Positions 29,771 to 42,273 of a DNA stretch of 64,000 bases are shown in pieces; within the stretch, counting starts at the first letter, position 1; every line of letters begins with the position of its first letter. Below the pieces are notes generated by a model. It made no database searches, had not been told where the DNA came from, and saw only the letters and a program-made list of their open reading frames with translations. This DNA comes from Lachnospira multipara LB2003. GTDB lineage: Bacteria > Bacillota > Clostridia > Lachnospirales > Lachnospiraceae. The DNA is taken from the NCBI RefSeq assembly GCF_000702205.1, contig NZ_JNKW01000005.1:62001-126000 (forward strand), in the 5' to 3' direction. The position numbers and the translations under genes are program-made.

Positions 29771-29801
29771 ATTGCAAGGAAACCGACGGCTTCCTTGCAA
29801 T
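29771..29801. terminator. Bidirectional terminator upstream of transketolase
   Basis: An 11-bp perfect stem (29771-29781 with 29791-29801). The minus-strand tail is ATTTTGTTTTAC and the plus-strand tail TATTTTTATG. On minus it ends the TPR/AAA-like gene. Confidence 0.85.
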
Positions 29802-29864: not shown

Positions 29865-32381
29865 TCAATCTTTAAAATCTGACTCTGTAAGGTAAATCAT
29901 ATTACCATCTGTAGATTTCTTTTTCTTAAGTGCTCCAAAGAATTTTCTAGAAGCTCTTCTTTCTGAATTAAGAATTGCGTTGTTAATAATTTCCTTAATA
30001 TCATCAAGTTTAATATTATCATTAACATTCTTAAGCTTATCGATCTTTAAATATAATTCAAGTAATGCGTCATCATGAACTTCATACTGTCTCTTCTTAG
30101 CAAATCTCTTAGCCATTTCAACAAGTTCATTAACATTATACTGCTTAAGAACAATTCTATGATTAAATGTATTAGTAAGTTCTGGATTGAAATTAACTAA
30201 AACATTCATCTCTGCGTCTGAATCCTCAAGGATTACAATCATTCTGCCTGTATCCTGTTCTAGGCAATTAAGAATTTCATTAATTCTCTTTGGCTGAATT
30301 GTACCAGCGCCTTCAATAATAAGCACTGTACCTCTAAGCTTAGCCATTGCCTTAGTAATACCTCTGGCATTAATGCTATCGCCTGTTGTCTTCGCAATTT
30401 TTTTAGGAGCATCTGGATATAAATGATTAATTGCTCTTACAATTGCTCTTGCTAAATCAAGCTTATCAGCACTTGTGTTACCAGAAAGAAGAATATTACC
30501 TTTAACAGAATTAGTCATATTCATCTCGCCCTGTAAGCCCTCAAAGAAATCTACTAACTGCTCCTCAAGACCTGGCATATCTTTATATTTTCTAAAGATC
30601 TTAGCTAGTTCAGGATCAAGCTTTCTGCCGCCATCCTCTTCTTCTAAATCCATTTCGTCAATAGACTTCTTCATCTCTTCGATAATATCAGTTCTTTCTT
30701 CAACTTCATTTGTTGATTCCTCTACTGACTCTTTAACCAAATCTTCTTTAACTTCATCAGTAATTTCTTCTGTCTGTAAAACCTTTACACTTTCCTTTTG
30801 AATATCTTCTCCCATTTTATTCTCTACCCCGTCTTTTTCCTTATCAGCAAATTTCTCCTCTTTTACTGATTCAATCCAATCCATAAGACTTAACTGACCC
30901 TCTATCTGATCATCTAAGCCTGTTGTTTCCTCTTCACTATTAGTCTTAGACTCTAACTGAACTTCTTCCGGTTCTAACTCCCCAGTCTTCATAAAGCTAA
31001 CATCTGCTGTTTCGCTTTGTGCCGGACTAAATTCCTTATCTTCTTCGTTAATATATCCACTAATGTTCTTAGCGATTTCAGTCTGAAGATTCTGAGTATT
31101 ATTGATATCATATTCAGGAACTACTGTATCAAAGTTCTTTACATTCTCTTCAATACGAGCTTGTGTTTCTTTACGTTCTTCTTCTTCGTCTTCTTTATTA
31201 ATCTGATCAATATTATTTTCTATCTGCTTTTTAGCATTTTCAATGAGCTCTTTTAATGATAAATTAGCCTTATCTATACTACTTTCCATTGAACTTGCTC
31301 CCTGTATGCTAGGAGTAACATCAAGTTCTGGCTTTGTTACAACTGGACTTTCTTTATCATCTCTTCTAACTTTCTGTTCTTTAACTTCAGTTTCGTTATT
31401 CTCTTGCTTGTCCTTTTCAAGGGCTCTCATAACGAATTCTTTAATTTCTTCACTATCGTTAGTTTCTATAATATCTGTATTAGGACCATCTTTACCAGGT
31501 GCGCTAATTGTAGGAACATCATCAACCTTCTTACTAACAGGCTCTTTATGAAGAGCTGTGATTTCTTCAAGCTTCTTTGAAGCCTCGATTGATGCCTTCT
31601 CATCTTCTTCCTTCTTAATAATGTCTGAAACAGCTTTATCAAAAACTGCTTCCTTCTCATCATTATCAAGAACTTCTCCTACTTCATCTTTCTTAATCTT
31701 AACTAATTCTTTAGTTTCTTCGAATTGTTTTTCAAGATTAATATCAGATTTCTTTGCCATGGCATTATCAAAAATCTTCTTCTGAGTATTAGTAAGTTCT
31801 GCACCTAATTCGTTCTTTAGGGAAACAGCCATTTCTACATAATCGCCATCTTGGAACCATAAAACAATATTATCGCAAGTCTTAATACACTCATCTTTTC
31901 TATCTGTCTTAAAGTAGAGCTTAGCAAGCTCATACATATATTTCTCATCAATTTCATGTTCTTTATATTCTTCAAGAATCTCTACTAATTCATTATCACT
32001 AGCATTCTCCGCATGTCTTAACTCATATAAAAGAACATATTTATCAACATCTCTATGAGCAACATGAGCGTATTCCTCATATAACTCATCAGCCTCCTCA
32101 TAATCACCGATCTTAATGTTTAATTCTACTAATTTGTAGATTAACTTCTTTCCACCAAGATTTCTGTTATATGCAAGAATCGCCATGTCTCTTGCTTCAT
32201 CATAATCTTCAATTGCTTCAAATACATTAATTGCTGTTGCAAGAGCCTGCCAATCTTTACACTTAAGCCAATTAAGATCCTTGGCTATTCTTGCTGCCTC
32301 TTCGTATTCTTTCTTAGCTGCAAGTTTTCTTACTTGCTCCATTTTTATATTAAATTCATATTTATCCATAATTACAAACAA
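29865..32381 (-). CDS. TPR-repeat protein with a degenerate AAA (CbxX/CfxQ-like) domain
   Basis: 838 aa, cytoplasmic. Residues 10-200 are TPR-like helical pairs. Residues 220-590 are a highly charged, low-complexity linker rich in Glu, Lys, Asp and Ser. Residues 600-815 resemble a CbxX-type AAA domain, but with damaged motifs: the P-loop region reads GNTSADK instead of GxxxxGKT, and the Walker B region reads LIIEGAG. It is therefore probably a scaffold or a non-hydrolysing ATPase. It follows the JetABC-like genes but has its own promoter. The start is uncertain: the TTG at 32381 has the better ribosome-site spacing, the ATG at 32369 is the alternative. Confidence 0.7.
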   Translation of the reverse strand: MFVIMDKYEFNIKMEQVRKLAAKKEYEEAARIAKDLNWLKCKDWQALATAINVFEAIEDYDEARDMAILAYNRNLGGKKLIYKLVELNIKIGDYEEADELYEEYAHVAHRDVDKYVLLYELRHAENASDNELVEILEEYKEHEIDEKYMYELAKLYFKTDRKDECIKTCDNIVLWFQDGDYVEMAVSLKNELGAELTNTQKKIFDNAMAKKSDINLEKQFEETKELVKIKKDEVGEVLDNDEKEAVFDKAVSDIIKKEEDEKASIEASKKLEEITALHKEPVSKKVDDVPTISAPGKDGPNTDIIETNDSEEIKEFVMRALEKDKQENNETEVKEQKVRRDDKESPVVTKPELDVTPSIQGASSMESSIDKANLSLKELIENAKKQIENNIDQINKEDEEEERKETQARIEENVKNFDTVVPEYDINNTQNLQTEIAKNISGYINEEDKEFSPAQSETADVSFMKTGELEPEEVQLESKTNSEEETTGLDDQIEGQLSLMDWIESVKEEKFADKEKDGVENKMGEDIQKESVKVLQTEEITDEVKEDLVKESVEESTNEVEERTDIIEEMKKSIDEMDLEEEDGGRKLDPELAKIFRKYKDMPGLEEQLVDFFEGLQGEMNMTNSVKGNILLSGNTSADKLDLARAIVRAINHLYPDAPKKIAKTTGDSINARGITKAMAKLRGTVLIIEGAGTIQPKRINEILNCLEQDTGRMIVILEDSDAEMNVLVNFNPELTNTFNHRIVLKQYNVNELVEMAKRFAKKRQYEVHDDALLELYLKIDKLKNVNDNIKLDDIKEIINNAILNSERRASRKFFGALKKKKSTDGNMIYLTESDFKD

Positions 32382-32543: not shown

Positions 32544-35500
32544 CTATGTTAAAAAATCAAAGCTAGCCTGCTCATATTCCATTCTTGTATATTCAAGTTC
32601 AGACTCTTTTGTGTTGCTATAATAATCGACTACAACGGTCTGCTGTTTATTATCTACAAGCTTCTGACCTAATATATAATTAACATCAAAACGTCCGATA
32701 ATTGCTGGTGTAGCACCTCTTGCTGGTACAATTAACTGTACATGATTAGTAGCAAGAAGTTTAAAAATTGGCTCCCAGATATAAATATCCTTTGCAGCAC
32801 CAAATGGATTATCAATAAAAATTGTTTTTCCAGTTACGCCATCACTTGAATACTCATTCATATTAGAAATGTAATTAATTATTGCAATAAGGAACTGAAT
32901 ATAAATACCCTGTGACTGACCTGTTGAACCAACAGCCTCCTCATATTTAAGGTATCTTGATTGATCCTTAATTCGCTCTCTCTTATATAGATTAACTCTA
33001 ACGGCATTCATATCCGTAACTATAACTGAGAATAATCTCTTCCAACTTAATCTATTACGGATATATTTTAATCTCTCAGATAAATCCTTGAAACTTTCTG
33101 CCATTACAACGGTTTCATCAATATAATTAGACATTCTATCCTTATATAGCTCTTCCTTAACATATGGAATTGCAAGACTTATAATGCTAATTTGCTCACC
33201 ATCTAAATTAATATTTGATAATTTTGGCAATCTATCAAGTTCAGTCTTTATATTGGCACATGTCTGAATACATCTGTTTTCAAAGTTATCCTTAATTCTT
33301 TCCATATCTTCGATGCCTTTGCGAATTCTATCCTTTTCAAGTTCAATTAACTGGTTAGTTTCGCTAAGAGCAGCTATCATAGTCTCTGCTTTTTCAAAAC
33401 TATCAGGAGTATTAATAGATATCTTTATCTCTTCTGATAATTCCCTTGCATCAAAACCATTTAATAGGTCAATTAAGTTCTGCTTATTTTTAACAAATTC
33501 TTCTTTTTTCTTATATTCAAGCTTTCCTATTGCCTGGTATTCCTTAATTACATCTTCGTAATCATCTAGGTTAATGCTTAAGTTTGAACCTAGATTTGAA
33601 TCTACTGTTTCTGGTAATTCCATACCTGCATCTGCAACAATTCTTCTTAAGTCTCTTTCAATTACAGCTATTTCCTTTAGCTTTGATTCTGAATCCTTAA
33701 TAGCTTTTTCCTGATTCTTAACATCCTTTTTAAGCTTTTCTATTAATTCTTTATGCTGCTTTATAAAAGCCTCAGGATCATTACAATCAAAAGCCTTATA
33801 TTCACCATACTTCTCTTCGATCTGATTAATTCCATAACAAATTGAACCATCTAATCTATTATATAAAGCTTCCTTAGAATCAAGTTCAGCCATATTTTTC
33901 TTATGGTTCTTTTTAAGAGTTTCAAGCTCTTTTTTGTAATCCATAAGCTTGTTAGTTGCTAAATTAAATTGCTTTTCCTTAGAATATAGATTTTGCATTT
34001 CCTCAAGCTTAAAGCCTCTATATTCAATCTGATTAACGCACTTAGCTATTGAAGAGTTAAGATGTTGAATTAGGTTTTCCTTATCCTTAACATCTGCACT
34101 CTTTGAATTAAGAGCTGTTCTTAAGCCGCTAAATCTGCTCTCAAGTCCACTCTCATCATTCTCATAAATAGCATATATTTCTGTGCATTCAATGCTTGGA
34201 TCATAATACTGCTTATACTCTTCTTCCCAATTAGCCTTTAAATTAACAATCTTCTTATCATATGAATAATTAATCTCTCTTTGGCTATTTAACTGCTCTG
34301 AAAGCTTAGATAAATTATTCTCATAGTCTGTAACCTTTACCTTAGCTGCAGCAATTTTTCCCTCAAGAGAAGCTACTTCATTATATACATCAGAAATTTG
34401 AGCATTAAAGCTAATAATTGTCTTTAGCTTTTGTACTCTTTGTCCTATTTTTTCAACTTCTGTTTCAAGAGTTTCCTTATCTTTTTCTGATTCTCTAACT
34501 CTTTCATCTAGTTGATGTCTTTTTTCTTCATAAGACATTATTTCTTCTTCGTAATGACTAACTTTTCCCTCAATCTCATTAATAGACTGACTTTGATTAT
34601 TCTTATTCTTTAAGACTTGATAAGAAAAAACGAAGGTATAATCATTCCAAATTAGGTCTTTTCTATCCTCTAATGTCTTCTTTTTATATCTAATTTCTGA
34701 AAGTTCATCATTAGCAAGTTTCAATTCTCTATCAATATCAGCCTGATCTCGTAAGAAATTCATATCCTTTAAGGCAAAAACTACCAATTCCTTATTAACC
34801 TCTAGCTTTGTATCAATTAATATTTGCTCACTAATTACAGGAAAAATTACAGCACCTCTACCAAAATTAGTTAAGGTCTGATCATTTTTAATTCTTTCAA
34901 AATCGTTTTTTATAATGAAGCCATATTCAACAAAAGGTGTTCTCTTTAATACATCTCTTCGTTGTCCGACTGGTAGGGCATCAAACCACTCATGGCCTTC
35001 AACCACATCATCTCCATACTGTGAAACCAGATAATTTTTTAATCTTTCTCTTTCTTTATTATCACATGTATAAGTTCTTTTATTTACATTGTCTATAAAC
35101 TTAACAAGAGCCTTTTCTTCCCTTATAGCATCTTCGTAATCTCTATAAACACTTCTATATGTGTCCAATATCTGATCACATAAGCCTGCATTTAATTCCT
35201 TGCCATAAATGCTAATAATATTCTCTAATTTCTCATTACTACTAGCATCCTTTTCCTTATCTGTCGCACTGTCTGTTAATTGAACTTTTAAGACATCAAT
35301 TAAAGCTTTATTTGTGTTAATCTGTTCAGTTAGCTTATTTAATTCCTGTAAATCCTTTTTGTAAGAATCAGACACTGTAATGAGTTTTGCTTTATAGTCT
35401 GATAAATTCTTAGTATCATTCTTAAGCATTTCCTCTGCATTTTCAGGAACTAGAAGGCCAACTTCATCCATCATTGATTTTAGTCGTTTATTAGCTCCTT

Positions 35501-36980
35501 CTATACCATTCTTATTATGTTCTATAAGACTTTGTAATCCTGCAAGTTCCTTATCTGCCTCTCTTAGGTCTTTCTTTGCAACCTCATATTTAGCATTAAC
35601 ATTTTTCTCATCATTATCAGATAACTTCTTCTTACTAAGTAAATCATCTAATTTGCGATTATAAATCTTATAATATGCTCCTGCTAACTCCTTTAATTCC
35701 TTTAGAATGTCATCATCATCCCTTAATCTTCCATCAAGAGATGTCTTAACAGAAAGAAGATTATCATTATAATCTAAATAATCCTTATAATCTTGTAACG
35801 CCTCATAAAGATTAAGTTTTTTCTCTAAATCATCAATTTTTTCTTGTTCATTAGAAACAATATCCTTAGATTCCTTTACAAGTTTTTCTAATGCATCTAG
35901 TGAACGTTTCTCAGACATTACTTCTGCTATAGCAATGTTCTTATTCTCATAATCTAGGGATTCCTTTATTCTATCTAGGGCATGTCCTTTTTGTTCAACT
36001 TCAAGTTGCTTATTTCCATGCTCATAAATTGAGCAAAGTCCTAGATTATATAAATCCTTGGAAGTCTTATTTTTTCTATCGTAAAAATCTTTATATGTCT
36101 CTAGGTATTCCCTAAATCCGTCTATAGCTGCGACTTGGCTATCATAAGCGCTAAGACGTGCATGTTTTTTAGATAACTCCACTAACTTATCCTTGATATC
36201 AAGTAAAGTCTCTGCCATCTTTTCTTCGTCATTATCTACAGATAGTCTGTTATTAAAGGATTTCTGAATTATTTCTTCAATTAATAAGTCCTCAATTACT
36301 TTTCTACTTGTCTTATAATTAGTTTCAAAGTATGTTCTTACATGACCTTCTGTCTTATTTATTCCGCGAACAATTTCCCACGCACTTTCATAAATACCAT
36401 ATTTAGTAATAAAACTCTGATATTCACCCTTCTTGTCAAAAATATAAACTTCGTACTTAAAGTCCGTTTTATTCAATTCACGAAGATAGTTTTTAAGTCC
36501 ATTATAAGTGATTTTTTCTCCATTGCTTGAAAGTGGCAAGTTCTTAATATCATTGTCGCCAAACTCTCTATAAAAAAGACAATAATTAAAGTACTCGATT
36601 GAAGCACTGCTACTTGACTGGGCTAGACTATCATCTTGGTCATCGTCCCCTTGCTTACCCTTTCTTGCACAAAAACCTGTAGTCATATACGTAAAACCAT
36701 CTTTTACGTAACACTTATCAAGCTTCCATTCCACAAGAGAATGAATACAGGTATTTCCTCCTCCCTGTCTAAAAAGCTTCTCTATAGGCTGCTTTTCATC
36801 AAGAGTACAATTTGGAATCATATTCTGTAATAGTAAAAGCATAAGCAAACTTTTACCACCACCATTAGCCAAATCATATATAGTGTTTTTGCAATTAAAG
36901 CGCATAACAAAATCATCATAAACTTGAGTTGCAAAATTATATTTTACGTTATTAACACGAATTCTATTAATTTGCGGCAT
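32544..36980 (-). CDS. SMC-like ATPase of a Wadjet/MksB (condensin-type) complex, JetC-like
   Basis: 1478 aa, size and layout of MukB/MksB/JetC. The N-terminal head has Walker A near residue 43 (LANGGGKSLL). Long coiled coils flank a central hinge-like region at about 630-770 (ALPVGQRR, FVEYGFIIKNDFERI). The C-terminal head has a signature-like GSTGQSQGIYIQF and a Walker B-like IFIDNPFG at about 1386-1394, where Asn follows the Asp instead of the usual Glu. It overlaps the JetB-like gene by 14 bp, a sign of translational coupling. By family knowledge it should form an ATP-driven loop-extruding motor with the two genes upstream. Confidence 0.75.
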   Translation of the reverse strand: MPQINRIRVNNVKYNFATQVYDDFVMRFNCKNTIYDLANGGGKSLLMLLLLQNMIPNCTLDEKQPIEKLFRQGGGNTCIHSLVEWKLDKCYVKDGFTYMTTGFCARKGKQGDDDQDDSLAQSSSSASIEYFNYCLFYREFGDNDIKNLPLSSNGEKITYNGLKNYLRELNKTDFKYEVYIFDKKGEYQSFITKYGIYESAWEIVRGINKTEGHVRTYFETNYKTSRKVIEDLLIEEIIQKSFNNRLSVDNDEEKMAETLLDIKDKLVELSKKHARLSAYDSQVAAIDGFREYLETYKDFYDRKNKTSKDLYNLGLCSIYEHGNKQLEVEQKGHALDRIKESLDYENKNIAIAEVMSEKRSLDALEKLVKESKDIVSNEQEKIDDLEKKLNLYEALQDYKDYLDYNDNLLSVKTSLDGRLRDDDDILKELKELAGAYYKIYNRKLDDLLSKKKLSDNDEKNVNAKYEVAKKDLREADKELAGLQSLIEHNKNGIEGANKRLKSMMDEVGLLVPENAEEMLKNDTKNLSDYKAKLITVSDSYKKDLQELNKLTEQINTNKALIDVLKVQLTDSATDKEKDASSNEKLENIISIYGKELNAGLCDQILDTYRSVYRDYEDAIREEKALVKFIDNVNKRTYTCDNKERERLKNYLVSQYGDDVVEGHEWFDALPVGQRRDVLKRTPFVEYGFIIKNDFERIKNDQTLTNFGRGAVIFPVISEQILIDTKLEVNKELVVFALKDMNFLRDQADIDRELKLANDELSEIRYKKKTLEDRKDLIWNDYTFVFSYQVLKNKNNQSQSINEIEGKVSHYEEEIMSYEEKRHQLDERVRESEKDKETLETEVEKIGQRVQKLKTIISFNAQISDVYNEVASLEGKIAAAKVKVTDYENNLSKLSEQLNSQREINYSYDKKIVNLKANWEEEYKQYYDPSIECTEIYAIYENDESGLESRFSGLRTALNSKSADVKDKENLIQHLNSSIAKCVNQIEYRGFKLEEMQNLYSKEKQFNLATNKLMDYKKELETLKKNHKKNMAELDSKEALYNRLDGSICYGINQIEEKYGEYKAFDCNDPEAFIKQHKELIEKLKKDVKNQEKAIKDSESKLKEIAVIERDLRRIVADAGMELPETVDSNLGSNLSINLDDYEDVIKEYQAIGKLEYKKKEEFVKNKQNLIDLLNGFDARELSEEIKISINTPDSFEKAETMIAALSETNQLIELEKDRIRKGIEDMERIKDNFENRCIQTCANIKTELDRLPKLSNINLDGEQISIISLAIPYVKEELYKDRMSNYIDETVVMAESFKDLSERLKYIRNRLSWKRLFSVIVTDMNAVRVNLYKRERIKDQSRYLKYEEAVGSTGQSQGIYIQFLIAIINYISNMNEYSSDGVTGKTIFIDNPFGAAKDIYIWEPIFKLLATNHVQLIVPARGATPAIIGRFDVNYILGQKLVDNKQQTVVVDYYSNTKESELEYTRMEYEQASFDFLT

Positions 36981-37686
36981 TTTCTACTCCCCCGTTCATA
37001 ATCTCAGAAAATCTTCCTCTATATTCATCAAAATAATTTTCAATTAAGCTCTTAAATCTATCTGTTGGATAAAATCTATCCTGACTTTCCACTAATAATT
37101 CTTGACTTACAAGGAAATTAAGTACAATTTTTACAAAACCTGCTTTAGAATTTCTTGCAGCTCTAAGACCTGACTGTTCCTCATAAGTTGCTGCAGGAAG
37201 TTCATCCCAGCTAAGGGCAATCTGCTTAAAGGAATTCTCTTCAACCTCATCAAGTACAAGTCCTTTACTTTTATCTACTATTGATGAGCTTGTTTTTTCC
37301 ACATTATTTATTACATCTTCAACCCTTATAAACTCCGCATATGTAGAGCTAATGGTGTCTGTATAAAAAAGCATAATAACATTGTAGATTACAAAATATG
37401 ATAGATATAATTCCTTATTAACCCTAAGTCCCATCTTATTTCTAAGTTCTTCGTTAGTATATCCAAAGACCTTATTACTCTCTTTAGGACCCACAAATAA
37501 TGCATTATTATATTCATAAATATTTAAATTGAATTTCTTCAAAGACATATGAACAATGTCATATACCTCAGCATTAGTATTGTATTCCTGATAAAGTCCA
37601 GAATTATCGCCTTTTTCAGCCACCGATTCTCCATTAACAAGTTTAGATACAATATCTAACGCCTTATCTAAATTTCGATTTTCCAT
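36967..37686 (-). CDS. JetB/MksE-like small condensin accessory subunit
   Basis: 239 aa, helical with winged-helix-like segments near the C-terminus (FVKIVLNFLVSQELLVESQDRFYPTDRFKSL). The size and position between the JetA-like and JetC-like genes match the KITE-type subunit MksE/JetB (DUF6063-like in Wadjet type III). The sequence alone is weakly diagnostic, so the call rests largely on context. There is an 11-bp gap from the JetA-like gene and a 14-bp overlap with the JetC-like gene. Confidence 0.6.
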   Translation of the reverse strand: MENRNLDKALDIVSKLVNGESVAEKGDNSGLYQEYNTNAEVYDIVHMSLKKFNLNIYEYNNALFVGPKESNKVFGYTNEELRNKMGLRVNKELYLSYFVIYNVIMLFYTDTISSTYAEFIRVEDVINNVEKTSSSIVDKSKGLVLDEVEENSFKQIALSWDELPAATYEEQSGLRAARNSKAGFVKIVLNFLVSQELLVESQDRFYPTDRFKSLIENYFDEYRGRFSEIMNGGVENAAN

Positions 37687-37697
37687 AATTCTCCTTT

Positions 37698-39212
37698 TTA
37701 GCTTACCTTCCTGATTAAAATATCGCTAACTTCTAAATCATCGCCTATCTTAACCATATCGTCCTGTTGCTTAACTAATTCAATATTAATTCTATTGCTA
37801 CCCTCATAGCCCTCTTTTAATATTCCATCTAAAAATGTTTCATTATCCATTTCGCTTCCGCCAATTTTATATGTCTCTTTTTGACAAAGATTAACAAAAA
37901 ACGAGAAATAGTCCACATTTTTTAGAATGTTTTCATCATAAGTTTTTTTCATAAGTTCATTAAAGTCGCTTAAGCTTATACTTGTCTTCTTATGAAGGAC
38001 GCTTATAAGATTATTCATAATAAAGATGTAATTAAACTTAATTCTTGCATCTTCGATTTCATCCTCAAAGACAATATCCATTGCTTCTTCATTAATAACT
38101 TTTTCCTTATATTCATACTTGGCTGGCTTCATAGTTAAAGCCTCATCTATACTATTTAATCCAAAAGTCTTTTTAATGTTTGGCTTAAATAAAGGACCAA
38201 GCAATATGCTTAATGCATCTGCATTGTCTCTTTTTATCATAGCATTTAGAGTAGCTGTAAAATCCATATGACTTCTTAGTCTGCTTAACTTAGCACGTCT
38301 AACAGCATCATCTGTCATCTTCTGCATTTGTGTGCAATCTCTTAAAAGCTCTGCATGTCTATTCATAGCTATCTTTAGCTGATTTTCTAGATTATATATT
38401 TCATTAATAGTTCTATAATAACTTTCAGTTTTTTCCTTAGTGCTACTAGCATTTAGTCGATCTATGGATTTTTTTATTAATTCCTGATTTTTCTTAAATA
38501 ACTTTTCTTCATCTTCAAACCACTTCATTCCCGTTTCAACAAATTCTTCATATGCATCAATGCCCGCATAAACATCTGTTGATAGAATTAAAAGGACTTC
38601 GTTCTTCTTTTGTTTTAATCTGTTCACTTCTTCATTAATTCGCTCTACAACTTCAATACCACCTCTGAAGTTCTCTGAATTAATCATTTTTTCAAGAAGC
38701 AACTGAGATACATTTATTCTACTTTCATCTTTTATTTCTTTCGTATCAAGATAGAATTCTACCGCATCCGCACTTATGGAATACCACACTGTATTATTAC
38801 GTATCGTACTTTCTATAATTCTCATTCGTGAAACATATCTCTTTTTATCAATTGGATCAAAGTATGAAAATTCAAATGGTCTACCGTCATTTTTAATCTT
38901 ATCAAACACATAATCAGATATTTCCTTAGCCTCTTCCATTGTTAAATCAAGGCCAAAATCTCTTTTTAGTAGACTTTCTGTAAAATTAAGATACTCAATA
39001 TAGGTTACATCCTTTTCTTTAAAGTTATTCTCTTCAATGAAAAAACGTAAGATTGCCATTATGATATAACCCATATCAAGAACTTCATATTTACCATCCT
39101 TAAATTGAGAAAAATTGGTATCTATCAATTTAAAAAACGGATAGTATTTTTTTAGATTTAGCATTCGCTCACGGTGATCTGTTATAATATCACCCATCAT
39201 ATTTTCAGCCAT
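37698..39212 (-). CDS. JetA/MksF-like kleisin subunit
   Basis: 504 aa. The N-terminal part is helical with a winged-helix feel (HRERMLNLKKYYPFFKLI ... GYIIMAILRFFIEENN). The middle, about residues 215-330, is coiled coil (EVNRLKQKKNEVL ... ENQLKIAMNRHAELL). The C-terminus is a second small domain. This layout and the gene order fit the kleisin MksF/JetA (DUF5716-like). The start is the ATG at 39212 behind GGGAG; an upstream TTG (39248) would run into recR. It begins 43 bp after recR and appears to be part of the dnaX operon. Confidence 0.6.
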   Translation of the reverse strand: MAENMMGDIITDHRERMLNLKKYYPFFKLIDTNFSQFKDGKYEVLDMGYIIMAILRFFIEENNFKEKDVTYIEYLNFTESLLKRDFGLDLTMEEAKEISDYVFDKIKNDGRPFEFSYFDPIDKKRYVSRMRIIESTIRNNTVWYSISADAVEFYLDTKEIKDESRINVSQLLLEKMINSENFRGGIEVVERINEEVNRLKQKKNEVLLILSTDVYAGIDAYEEFVETGMKWFEDEEKLFKKNQELIKKSIDRLNASSTKEKTESYYRTINEIYNLENQLKIAMNRHAELLRDCTQMQKMTDDAVRRAKLSRLRSHMDFTATLNAMIKRDNADALSILLGPLFKPNIKKTFGLNSIDEALTMKPAKYEYKEKVINEEAMDIVFEDEIEDARIKFNYIFIMNNLISVLHKKTSISLSDFNELMKKTYDENILKNVDYFSFFVNLCQKETYKIGGSEMDNETFLDGILKEGYEGSNRINIELVKQQDDMVKIGDDLEVSDILIRKVS

Positions 39213-39255
39213 TTTATCTCCCTTGTGGCTCTTTAGCCAATCCCCCAAATATTAA

Positions 39256-39852
39256 TTACAATTCTGTTCTACCTTCAAGTGCACGAAGTAATGTAACTTC
39301 ATCAATATATTCTAGATCTCCACCTACAGGAACACCACTAGCAATTCTTGTTACCTTAATTCCTGTCGGCTTAATCATCTTGCTAATATACATGGCAGTT
39401 GTTTCGCCTTCTAGATTAGAATTAGTGGCAATAATAACTTCATCCACATCACCTTCTAATCTCTTTATAAGTTCCTTTAATTTAATATCACTTGGACCAA
39501 TTCCAAGCATTGGGCTAATAGCTCCATGAAGTACATGGTAAACGCCTTCATATTTACCTGTCTTTTCGTATGCTGCCAAATCCTGAGTCTGCTCCACAAC
39601 CATAATCACCTTATGATTTCTCTTCTCATCTCTACAAATCGGACAAATTTCCTCATCTGTTAATGTAAAACATGATTTGCAATAATGAATGTGACCTCTT
39701 GCCTCAACCATTGTATTAGCAAGGCGCTCCACCTCATCCTCAGGCATATTAATAATATGAAATGCCAGGCGCTGTGCACTTTTTGCGCCAACACCTGGTA
39801 ATCTTGAAAGTTCTTCTATTAGCTTATTTATATGTCCACTATAAATGTCCAT
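39256..39852 (-). CDS. recR: Recombination mediator protein RecR
   Basis: 198 aa, standard length. N-terminal HhH ([16 protein letters not shown]), the four-Cys zinc site ([18 protein letters not shown]), and a Toprim domain ([28 protein letters not shown]), then the C-terminal Walker-like EGETTAMYI. With RecO and RecF it loads RecA on gapped DNA. It overlaps ybaB by one base, in the classical dnaX-ybaB-recR order. Confidence 0.97.
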
Positions 39853-40202
39853 TAAAATAAACCTCCGCCAAGACCTGAAAGGCCTCCAGTAATCTTAGAC
39901 ATAGATGCTGCAGATTCTTCCTCGCACTTTCTAAGCGCTTCGTTAGCTGCTGCAACAATTAAATCCTGAAGCATTTCAACATCATCTGGATCAACAGCTT
40001 CTGGATCAATTGTAACCTTTGTAAGTTCTCTCTTACCAGTTACTGTAACTTCAACAACTCCACCACCTGCAGTTGCTGTGAATTCCTTACTTTCTAGTGC
40101 TGCCTGCTGCTCTTCCATCTGTCTTTGCATTCTCTGAGCCTGCTTCATTAAATTATTCATATTGCCAGGCATACCACCTGGAAAACCGCCTCTTTTAGCC
40201 AT
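39852..40202 (-). CDS. YbaB/EbfC family nucleoid-associated protein
   Basis: 116 aa. It starts [31 protein letters not shown] and has the conserved core [29 protein letters not shown]. It is a small DNA-binding dimer whose gene always sits between dnaX and recR. It overlaps both neighbours by one base. Confidence 0.96.
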
Positions 40203-41827
40203 TAGATCATTTCCTCCGTATTATCATCAATTTCAATTTCGACTCCACTAACAAGATCTTTAATATCTGTATATCTGTTGTAGAAGTCTTCATTATCATC
40301 TAATTTTGTTATAAGAAGATCAACTGTAACTCCAGTTCTTTCCTCTATTAAATCAACCAATTCAGCCTTTCTTTCTTCTCGGCTTAAATCGTTATAGCTA
40401 CTTAAAGATTGTATCATAATCTCTAAACGTTTTCCATCTTCAGAAAGCGTTACATGTGACTTTTCTAGCATTTCTTTAAGTCTAGCTTCCTCTATACTAT
40501 CAACTATGCTTCTCCAAGCTTTCGCAATACTTTTTATATCTTCTGGGACAGCCTTATAAACTCTCTTTGGTAGTTCTTCTTTAACAGCATCCCCTTTATC
40601 TGTATCACTCGCCGCTCTAATTGGTACCATTACAGCCCCTGATTTTATTTTATTTAAGGCTTCTTCTAATTTACCTTCTAAAATGGTAATTCTACTTGTA
40701 AGATCTGATATATCCTCACTATTTTCCATAGCAGGTCTCATAAGTTTAATTAAAGTAATTTCTAATTCAATTCTCTTTTGAGTTGCCAGCTTAAGCTTAG
40801 CAACACTTTCAGATAGAATTCTTATATAACGCATTAATGTATCAACATCAACAAGTTTACTTACCTCTACCATATCATTTAGGTTATCACTAGAAACATC
40901 AATAACGTCTTCTATTTCCTTAATATCTCCTGTTGTCTTAATAAGAAGAAGATTCCTTAAATACCAAATAAAATCATTAACAAATTGAACAAGATCTCGA
41001 CCTTGAATAATAATGTCTTCTATAAGATTCATACACTGTGTCACATCGCCCTTTAATATAATCTCCAAAAGATTCTTAAACACATCTGTGTCAACAGCGC
41101 CTAAAACCTCAAGTACATTCTCATATTTAAGGTCCTTACCAAGATAAAAAGCGATACATTGATCAAGTAAGGATAGGGCATCTCTCATTGAACCATCTCC
41201 AGCTTTAGCAATATATCTTAAAGCTCTATCTTCAACATTAATATTCTCAGCTTTCATAAGCTCTGAAAGTCTTGATGCAATTGTATCTATGGTAATTCTA
41301 TGAAAATCGTATCTTTGAACACGAGATAGAATTGTAATTGGTATCTTAGCAACTTCTGTAGTTGCAAGTATAAAAATTACATATGCTGGTGGTTCCTCTA
41401 AAGTCTTTAAAAGAGCATTAAAAGCACTTGTTGATAGCATATGTACCTCATCGATGATATATACTTTGTATTTACCTTCTGTTGGTGAATACTGAACTTC
41501 ATCGACAATCTGACGTACATCATCTACGCTATTATTAGATGCAGCATCCATTTCAATAACATTCATAGATACTCCAGCTGCAATAGCCTTACAAACAGAA
41601 CATTCCCCACAAGGATTTCCATCCACAGGATTCTCACAGTTAACAGCTTTTGCCATAATCTTAGCAATAGTTGTCTTACCAGTACCTCTTGTACCTGTAA
41701 AAAGATATGCATGTCCTATTCTATCCGCTTTTATTTGGTTTTTTAATGTTGTAACAATGTGGTCCTGACCCTTAACATCATCGAAATTATCAGGTCTCCA
41801 CTTTCTATATAATGCTTGATATGCCAT
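40202..41827 (-). CDS. dnaX: DNA polymerase III subunit gamma/tau
   Basis: 541 aa clamp-loader ATPase. Walker A GTRGTGKTTIAK near residue 44, the zinc module with cysteines around residues 64-82 (PCGECSVC), Walker B YIIDEVHMLS, and sensor SRVQRYDFHRI. A C-terminal tau-like tail continues from about residue 370. It is downstream of the SRP RNA gene, as in Bacillus. Confidence 0.97.
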   Translation of the reverse strand: MAYQALYRKWRPDNFDDVKGQDHIVTTLKNQIKADRIGHAYLFTGTRGTGKTTIAKIMAKAVNCENPVDGNPCGECSVCKAIAAGVSMNVIEMDAASNNSVDDVRQIVDEVQYSPTEGKYKVYIIDEVHMLSTSAFNALLKTLEEPPAYVIFILATTEVAKIPITILSRVQRYDFHRITIDTIASRLSELMKAENINVEDRALRYIAKAGDGSMRDALSLLDQCIAFYLGKDLKYENVLEVLGAVDTDVFKNLLEIILKGDVTQCMNLIEDIIIQGRDLVQFVNDFIWYLRNLLLIKTTGDIKEIEDVIDVSSDNLNDMVEVSKLVDVDTLMRYIRILSESVAKLKLATQKRIELEITLIKLMRPAMENSEDISDLTSRITILEGKLEEALNKIKSGAVMVPIRAASDTDKGDAVKEELPKRVYKAVPEDIKSIAKAWRSIVDSIEEARLKEMLEKSHVTLSEDGKRLEIMIQSLSSYNDLSREERKAELVDLIEERTGVTVDLLITKLDDNEDFYNRYTDIKDLVSGVEIEIDDNTEEMI

Positions 41828-42006: not shown

Positions 42007-42273
42007 CCGTGCGCTTTAGTCTCGAACAATCATCCACAGACGTTACCAGTATAGTTAGCTCGGCCCAGGCGACCTCTCGGCACATAGAAGGTTCTACTTA
42101 ATGCTGCTTCGTTCCCGACCTGACATGATTCATAGATTCCTATTGCGAAAGACCCAAACGTCATCACCACTTTTACCGGGCTGCTCCATAAAATCAAGCC
42201 CTCAACCAAAGCATCACCCCTGCTATAGCAGATTTCAGGTACAGGGTTCTGCTACCACCCCGGCTGCACGGTA
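42007..42273 (-). ncRNA. ffs: Signal recognition particle RNA (large bacterial type)
   Basis: The minus-strand RNA starts near ACCGTGCAGCCGGGG and ends near GCACGG; the two ends pair. Domain IV is at 42103-42122 with CAGGTC, a GGAA tetraloop and GAAGCAGC, the Ffh-binding signature. The length (about 267 nt) and the GGGTGGTAGC 5' region indicate the Alu-containing Bacillus/Clostridium form. The location next to dnaX-ybaB-recR and tadA matches Bacillus synteny. The ends are estimated from the promoter and the closing helix. Confidence 0.93.

Follow-up and report, generated by a model that had tools for sequence, protein, structure and literature searches.

A JetD-less type III Wadjet-like JetABC trio behind recR in Lachnospira multipara and its relatives in the Lachnospiraceae

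What does a Wadjet motor do in a genome that lacks the subunit that cuts? The question is raised by the window, the whole stretch of 64,000 nucleotides analysed here (Lachnospira multipara LB2003, contig NZ_JNKW01000005.1, positions 62,001 to 126,000), in which three genes of a type III Wadjet-like system, jetA, jetB and jetC, stand directly behind dnaX-ybaB-recR with no gene for the fourth subunit, JetD. According to a review (PMC10586767), JetD is the cutting subunit and JetABC gives shape and size sensing; Wadjet work to date is stated there to be mostly on type I, and it is proposed that Wadjet gave rise to MukBEF/MksBEF-type condensins, MksBEF by way of JetD loss. The trio of the window belongs to a group of Lachnospiraceae loci without JetD, called clade R below (labels beginning with L and G denote sampled loci and genomes). 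We infer with moderate confidence, from sequence comparisons, that it is a JetD-less type III Wadjet motor that acts on chromosomal DNA without cutting, as an accessory condensin.

Identity of the JetABC trio and searches for JetD

The three proteins are matched over nearly their full lengths by the PADLOC type III Wadjet profiles JetA3, JetB3 and JetC3, and their genes follow one another in the order A-B-C (Table 1). Between jetA and jetB there is a gap of 11 bp, and jetB overlaps jetC by 14 bp, which is also the median (-14 bp) in 73 loci; a TTG at 39248, upstream of the ATG of jetA, is an alternative start that would lengthen JetA to 516 aa. The initial annotation had proposed a Wadjet-type trio from the sizes, order, overlap and gap of the genes, and both the coordinates and the profiles bear this out. 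Pfam recognises JetB alone, as DUF6063; no Pfam family matches JetA or JetC at E<=1, and the NCBIfam matches of JetC are weak, sub-cut-off ones to SMC models and two others. By Pfam and NCBIfam JetC is thus not a member of the SbcC or RecN families, the affiliation that would have spoken against the annotation, and the PADLOC profiles place the proteins in the Jet family. The Pfam JetA model (PF18982) was discarded as a probe, being uninformative with no match in the genome of LB2003 and none in 14 controls. An alignment of 80 JetA sequences has 41 invariant columns.

JetC has ATPase head motifs at both ends: a Walker A motif NGGGKS (Lys43), a signature GSTGQSQG (from residue 1351) and a Walker B motif DNPF (Asp1390). 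The Walker A and signature motifs are identical in all 98 clade-R JetC sequences aligned, and the signature fits S-x-G-Q, the usual form. The Walker B motif is DNPF in 131 of 131 type III JetC sequences aligned (98 of clade R and 33 others; codons 1390-1391 lie at 32808-32813 of the window), and DE in five JetC of other types from the same bacterial family (L309-L313; four of type I and, judged by eye, one of type II). A one-residue insertion in the signature was considered as a mark of clade R and rejected, wider sampling having found GSxG[QE] in the nearest JetD-bearing relatives as well; this form of the signature is therefore older than the JetD loss. The 95 JetC columns noted as marks of clade R may likewise be partly common to the few nearest relatives. 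The genome also encodes canonical SMC and ScpA, for which a genome search had been suggested, so jetABC is an additional complex. It shares with SMC-ScpAB the plan of an SMC protein, a kleisin and a KITE protein, but JetC matches the SMC model weakly, at 27.9 bits over the coiled coil versus 1085 bits for the true SMC.

No JetD gene is present at the locus in the window, and in the genome of LB2003 (99.95% complete) the Pfam model JetD_C has no match at E<=1, while it matched in two of 14 controls. Because JetD_C detects type III JetD weakly (23 bits), a JetD3 profile was built from 14 type III JetD proteins and run on 32 clade-R genomes and four others. It gave no match in the genome of LB2003 at E<=0.1, and matched all three controls that hold a type III JetD (G046, G071, G135); the fourth genome from outside the clade, G036, has no trio and is not a positive control. 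Strong matches among the clade-R genomes were confined to G151 and G174, both of which carry a second, canonical type III operon, and weak matches of 14-25 bits were found in G014, G025, G040, G126 and G182. A JetD_C search of 42 clade-R genomes, G600 (a genome of the same genus described below) and two controls gave a match in nine of the 42 and none in 33, LB2003 among the latter; none was found in the 12 genus members of the clade that were searched, out of 17. The nine include G151 and G174; in four more (G197, G042, G182, G040) the match adjoins a type I JetC in an operon of JetA-B-C-D size, three of these JetDs themselves scanning as type I; the JetD of G126 is of type II and lies beside its own JetC; the match in G014 runs into a contig end; and that in G115 is an open frame of 111 aa with no Jet-sized operon in view. 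No JetD was found by profile in any clade-R locus examined, including 0 of 80 named clade-R loci, 75 of which have at least 1 kb of upstream sequence. By these searches the trio lacks the JetD of a type III system both in its operon and in its own genome. The annotation had seen no JetD beside the trio, and this absence extends from the locus to the whole genome by both profiles; a jetD beside the same locus in related strains, which would have told against it, did not appear. Five columns that might bear on JetD docking, three of them in JetC and one each in JetA and JetB, are kept in JetD-bearing sequences and relaxed or replaced in clade R; they are too few to serve as an argument.

Clade R among JetD-bearing type III systems

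A JetB3 search of 200 Lachnospiraceae genomes matched 46, of which 32 scored 175-370 bits (clade R) and 16 scored 54-91 bits, two genomes having matches of both kinds. JetD lies directly 5' of JetA in 15 of the 16 lower-scoring loci, the exception being L035 (two of these JetDs are named by PADLOC, and that of L042 is cut by a contig end). In a sample of the class (391 genomes, 24 with JetB3 matches), 20 of 26 places were examined, of which one is of clade R; JetD is 5' of JetA in 18 of the other 19, the exception being L246. The phylum sample comprised 398 genomes and gave JetB3 matches in 45; of the 19 best places scoring below clade R, 18 were examined (all but G881), and JetD is present in 17 of 17 testable type III loci, L329 ending before JetA. 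Outside clade R, then, 50 of 52 type III loci have JetD 5' of JetA. In the class and phylum samples, scores at the level of clade R (>280 bits) are confined to the family of the window.

Trees of JetC and of JetA were computed from 74 sequences (41 picked from clade R and 33 others) by quick methods that gave long-branch warnings among the JetD-bearing sequences. In both trees clade R is one branch with a support of 100 in the Shimodaira-Hasegawa-like approximate likelihood ratio test (SH-aLRT), and the sequences nearest to it are JetD-bearing. Three changes suffice to explain the distribution of JetD on these trees, one each for clade R, L035 and L246. A single loss of JetD, at the root of clade R, is probable given this one fully supported branch and its JetD-bearing surroundings; L035 and L246 may be further, independent losses.

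Compared to type III Wadjet (JetABCD) in general, clade R has the same JetA, JetB and JetC families, gene order and sizes, the same Walker A motif, the DNPF form of Walker B and DUF6063 on JetB; it differs in having no JetD at its loci and in most of its genomes, in often standing beside recR and in many residues of the head. The JetD-bearing type III loci nearest in sequence (L233-L236, L316-L320) have the signature GSxG[QE] where it is readable, not SGGE; they differ in that each has JetD immediately 5' of JetA (incomplete at contig ends in L236), in that they come from other families of the phylum and in having no recR alongside.

Chromosomal setting, inheritance and selection

As the annotation had claimed, the trio adjoins the block of signal recognition particle (SRP) RNA, dnaX, ybaB and recR, on the same strand and with 43 bp between recR and the ATG of jetA (Table 1). 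Because this gap is so short, co-transcription of recR and jetA is likely, as judged from the sequence.

Table 1. Coordinates of the trio, of its surroundings in the window and of the empty site in a genome of the same genus
Feature	Position	Strand	Evidence
jetA, kleisin-like JetA3, 504 aa from ATG	37698..39212	-	PADLOC PDLC00560, 740 bits
jetB, KITE-like JetB3, 239 aa	36967..37686	-	PADLOC PDLC00571, 358 bits; Pfam DUF6063, 167 bits
jetC, SMC-like JetC3, 1478 aa	32544..36980	-	PADLOC PDLC00581, 1879 bits
recR, directly 5' of jetA	39256..39852	-	Pfam RecR domains and Toprim
ybaB	39852..40202	-	Pfam PF02575, 127 bits
dnaX	40202..41827	-	open reading frame (ORF), named by reading of the sequence; same dnaX-ybaB-recR order in relatives
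SRP RNA, large bacterial type, upstream of dnaX	42007..42271	-	Rfam RF01854, 171 bits
c3, tetratricopeptide repeat (TPR) protein whose C-terminal part is AAA-like, next gene 3' of jetC	29865..32381	-	TPR_19, E 7e-4 (below Pfam cut-off); SpoVK model, 44 bits at 700-835 (below cut-off)
Promoter-like site before c3	32482-32454	-	promoter scan; numbers of such sites not above chance
Terminator-like stem, 14 pairs, just after c3	29771..29801	-	scan; numbers of such sites in region not above chance
Empty site of G600, between recR and c3	L269 3600-11746	reverse	

The arrangement in relatives was examined in a named set, the best 80 of 220 loci from one scan of genome contigs, which overlaps the family sample (L094 and G094, for example), so that the two sets are not independent. 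It includes loci of Lachnospira pectinoschiza, L. multipara, Diplocloster, Anaerosporobacter and Falcatimonas, and a few loci from metagenome-assembled genomes whose titles are at odds with this (Bacteroides, Alistipes, Thermoflexaceae). In 46 of the 80, recR is 5' of jetA within 1.5 kb, with a median gap of 29 bp and a largest gap of 597 bp. The synteny of recR and jetABC without jetD, whose spread through the Lachnospiraceae the annotation had left to be surveyed, thus recurs, but the linkage to recR is not universal. The tie is closest in the genus of the window, where the trio is present in 17 of 22 genomes and in 12 of the 13 good ones; of the five genomes that lack it, four are 72-87% complete. 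All 17 have the trio at the recR site, and 15 further clade loci of the genus all read dnaX-ybaB-recR-jetABC; a sixteenth locus, L304, is the additional, canonical operon that G590 carries.

In the 41 loci that have all four genes, the distances of JetC correlate with those of DnaX and RecR combined (Spearman rho 0.72, with none of 500 permutations as high), as do those of JetA (0.63), while the correlation of DnaX with RecR is lower (0.35); the nearest neighbours of JetC agree with those of DnaX and RecR in 29 of the 41. By these measures the divergence of the trio tracks that of its neighbours in the recR-linked group. The ratio of nonsynonymous to synonymous substitution rates (dN/dS) of the Jet genes is 0-0.12 in the four pairs with dS <1, compared to 0.05-0.17 for dnaX and 0-0.01 for recR where it is present; other pairs are near or at saturation of dS, and the pair that includes the window gave no value for JetA or JetB and 0.17 for JetC. 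The Jet genes are, on these ratios, under purifying selection. They are full-length across lineages with a median JetC identity of 40%. In L064 (10077-11626), near a contig end, jetA is split into two ORFs. No relative of JetA turned up among 72,556 plasmids, 50,697 phages or the viral contigs scanned, where none of 135 pattern matches was confirmed, and with the synteny this answers the concern that the trio might be rare and mobile.

On the 3' side, 65 of the named loci have 2.5 kb of sequence to spare, and 53 of them have c3 no more than 2 kb from jetC: 37 of 39 with recR, 13 of 23 without recR and 3 of 3 with little upstream sequence. Its architecture recalls, as we take it, that of EccA/SpoVK; its P-loop appears by eye to be degenerate in the window and intact in some relatives. 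The promoter and terminator scans were dropped as evidence, their counts being at the level of chance, and letters resembling the promoter-like site of c3 were also seen by eye before c3 in two relatives. Among loci without recR, the commonest 5' gene is c22, of a family of about 760 aa (8 loci). A c22 gene with a weak cyclic-nucleotide-binding match is 5' of jetA in the subgroup of L054, L070, L072 and L139, often near tadA; and in L055, L057, L058, L069 and L075 genes other than c3 are 3' of jetABC; these include a malic enzyme gene and, at all but one of these loci, a gene for a radical SAM protein (named from L055).

The role of a trio without JetD

The pathway favoured here begins with a type III Wadjet JetABC that lost JetD, probably once, at the base of a Lachnospiraceae clade, and was then retained as a chromosomal gene set, often directly behind dnaX-ybaB-recR. 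JetA, as the kleisin, and JetB, as the KITE protein, would bridge the heads of JetC, and the complex would bind DNA and probably extrude loops. Without JetD, a motor that reaches the end of a circle would no longer cut; it would work alongside SMC-ScpAB on DNA of the chromosome (or on incoming DNA) and leave it uncut, perhaps during replication or repair; the recR site suggests a link to repair. By analogy, the nearest precedent for a condensin role of jetABC would be MksBEF of Pseudomonas, compared here by description only: both consist of three subunits without a nuclease. To our knowledge, MksBEF has no link to recR. According to two sources (PMC10586767, PMC7485682), MksBEF is related to JetABC, comprises three subunits after a presumed loss of JetD and has a chromosomal role beside SMC. 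No account of a JetD-less clade R was found in the open-licence PMC literature, the remark there on loss of JetD concerning Pseudomonas.

Several observations weigh against an accessory condensin. The trio is dispensable, because G600, of the same genus and 99% complete, has a clean empty site that reads dnaX-ybaB-recR-c3-tkt with about 100 bp from recR to c3. The patchy occurrence of clade R, found in just 32 of the 200 genomes of the family, would suit defence as well; among the 80 named loci, 34 have no recR within 1.5 kb (five of them with less than 1 kb upstream); and L035 (8014-9630) and L246, type III trios outside the clade, are also without an adjacent JetD. The permutation test of distances is uncorrected for saturation or shared ancestry. 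The kleisin and KITE assignments of JetA and JetB derive from family names, and sequence search found no credible solved relative of the trio proteins, the matches of JetC being to coiled coils. Finally, the residue after the Walker B aspartate is a catalytic glutamate in SMC proteins; since this position is asparagine in type III JetC, ATP hydrolysis, with or without JetD, is not assured from sequence. As to how the empty site arose, of the 25 recR loci without the trio that were examined (29 found; G043 judged by coordinates), 6 have c3 as the next gene after recR; when jet-less genomes were picked by a c3 match, 19 of 20 had c3 apart from recR. These data fit an insertion of the trio between recR and c3, long kept and cleanly lost at least once, with the direction inferred.

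Both the patchy distribution and the empty site are what would be expected of dispensable defence genes, and with the conserved motor motifs they could point to a trio that still defends, by sequestration or silencing: JetABC would extrude small circles fully and hold them compacted, uncut. We consider this unlikely, given the constant site and near-constant presence in the genus, divergence that tracks the neighbours and the retention of JetD in nearly all type III loci outside the clade; moreover, the neighbours in the window read as housekeeping genes (by a reading of ORFs, with no defence-gene scan of the window). Somewhat more doubtful is continued cutting with a nuclease supplied in trans, whether a JetD from a different Wadjet operon, a Toprim protein that has diverged or an unlinked enzyme. 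In its favour are the complete type III operons of G151 and G174, within the nine genomes with some JetD_C match, and the weak JetD3-profile matches in five genomes. The annotation's alternative of a nuclease encoded elsewhere is, however, unsupported for most genomes: 33 of 42, that of LB2003 among them, have no JetD_C match, and the full-length JetDs of the others sit with their own JetC, two of type III, four of type I and one of type II; the match in G014 runs into a contig end and that in G115 is 111 aa long. The recurrent clustered neighbours (recR, c3, c22 and the radical SAM group), which were profiled in part, include no recognised nuclease.

Two adjacent genes were considered as new partners. 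That c3, with its TPR and AAA-like stretches, is a new fourth subunit has a strong neighbourhood signal in its favour, including its position behind jetC in 13 of 23 loci without recR; but c3 was rejected as a replacement subunit and the idea is quite improbable, since 196 of the 200 genomes of the family have a match to its profile, most of them without jetABC (some matches may be other TPR proteins), it stands directly behind recR in 6 of the 25 jet-less loci, and it is preceded by its own promoter-like site, which by eye seems to be kept in the empty-site genome. More speculative still is a role for RecR. Where recR and the trio are linked, this Toprim protein is encoded at the place otherwise taken by JetD, itself a Toprim nuclease; with RecO and RecF it might be the partner of JetABC, in a loop-extruding complex that loads recombination mediators at stalled forks or gaps. 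If true, a defence motor would have turned into a repair machine. Least credible of all is a decaying remnant of a Wadjet system; the missing JetD and the split jetA of L064 would suit decay, but the genes are full-length at this degree of divergence and intact in most genomes sampled so far, the Walker A and signature motifs are invariant and dN/dS is low.

Clade R looks like a separate instance of JetD loss, inside type III. Because JetD-bearing relatives are extant and a genome of the same genus has an empty site, a switch from defence to another role is testable. Genomes of this kind would be mislabelled wherever matches to the JetA, JetB and JetC profiles alone are taken as a call of anti-plasmid defence.

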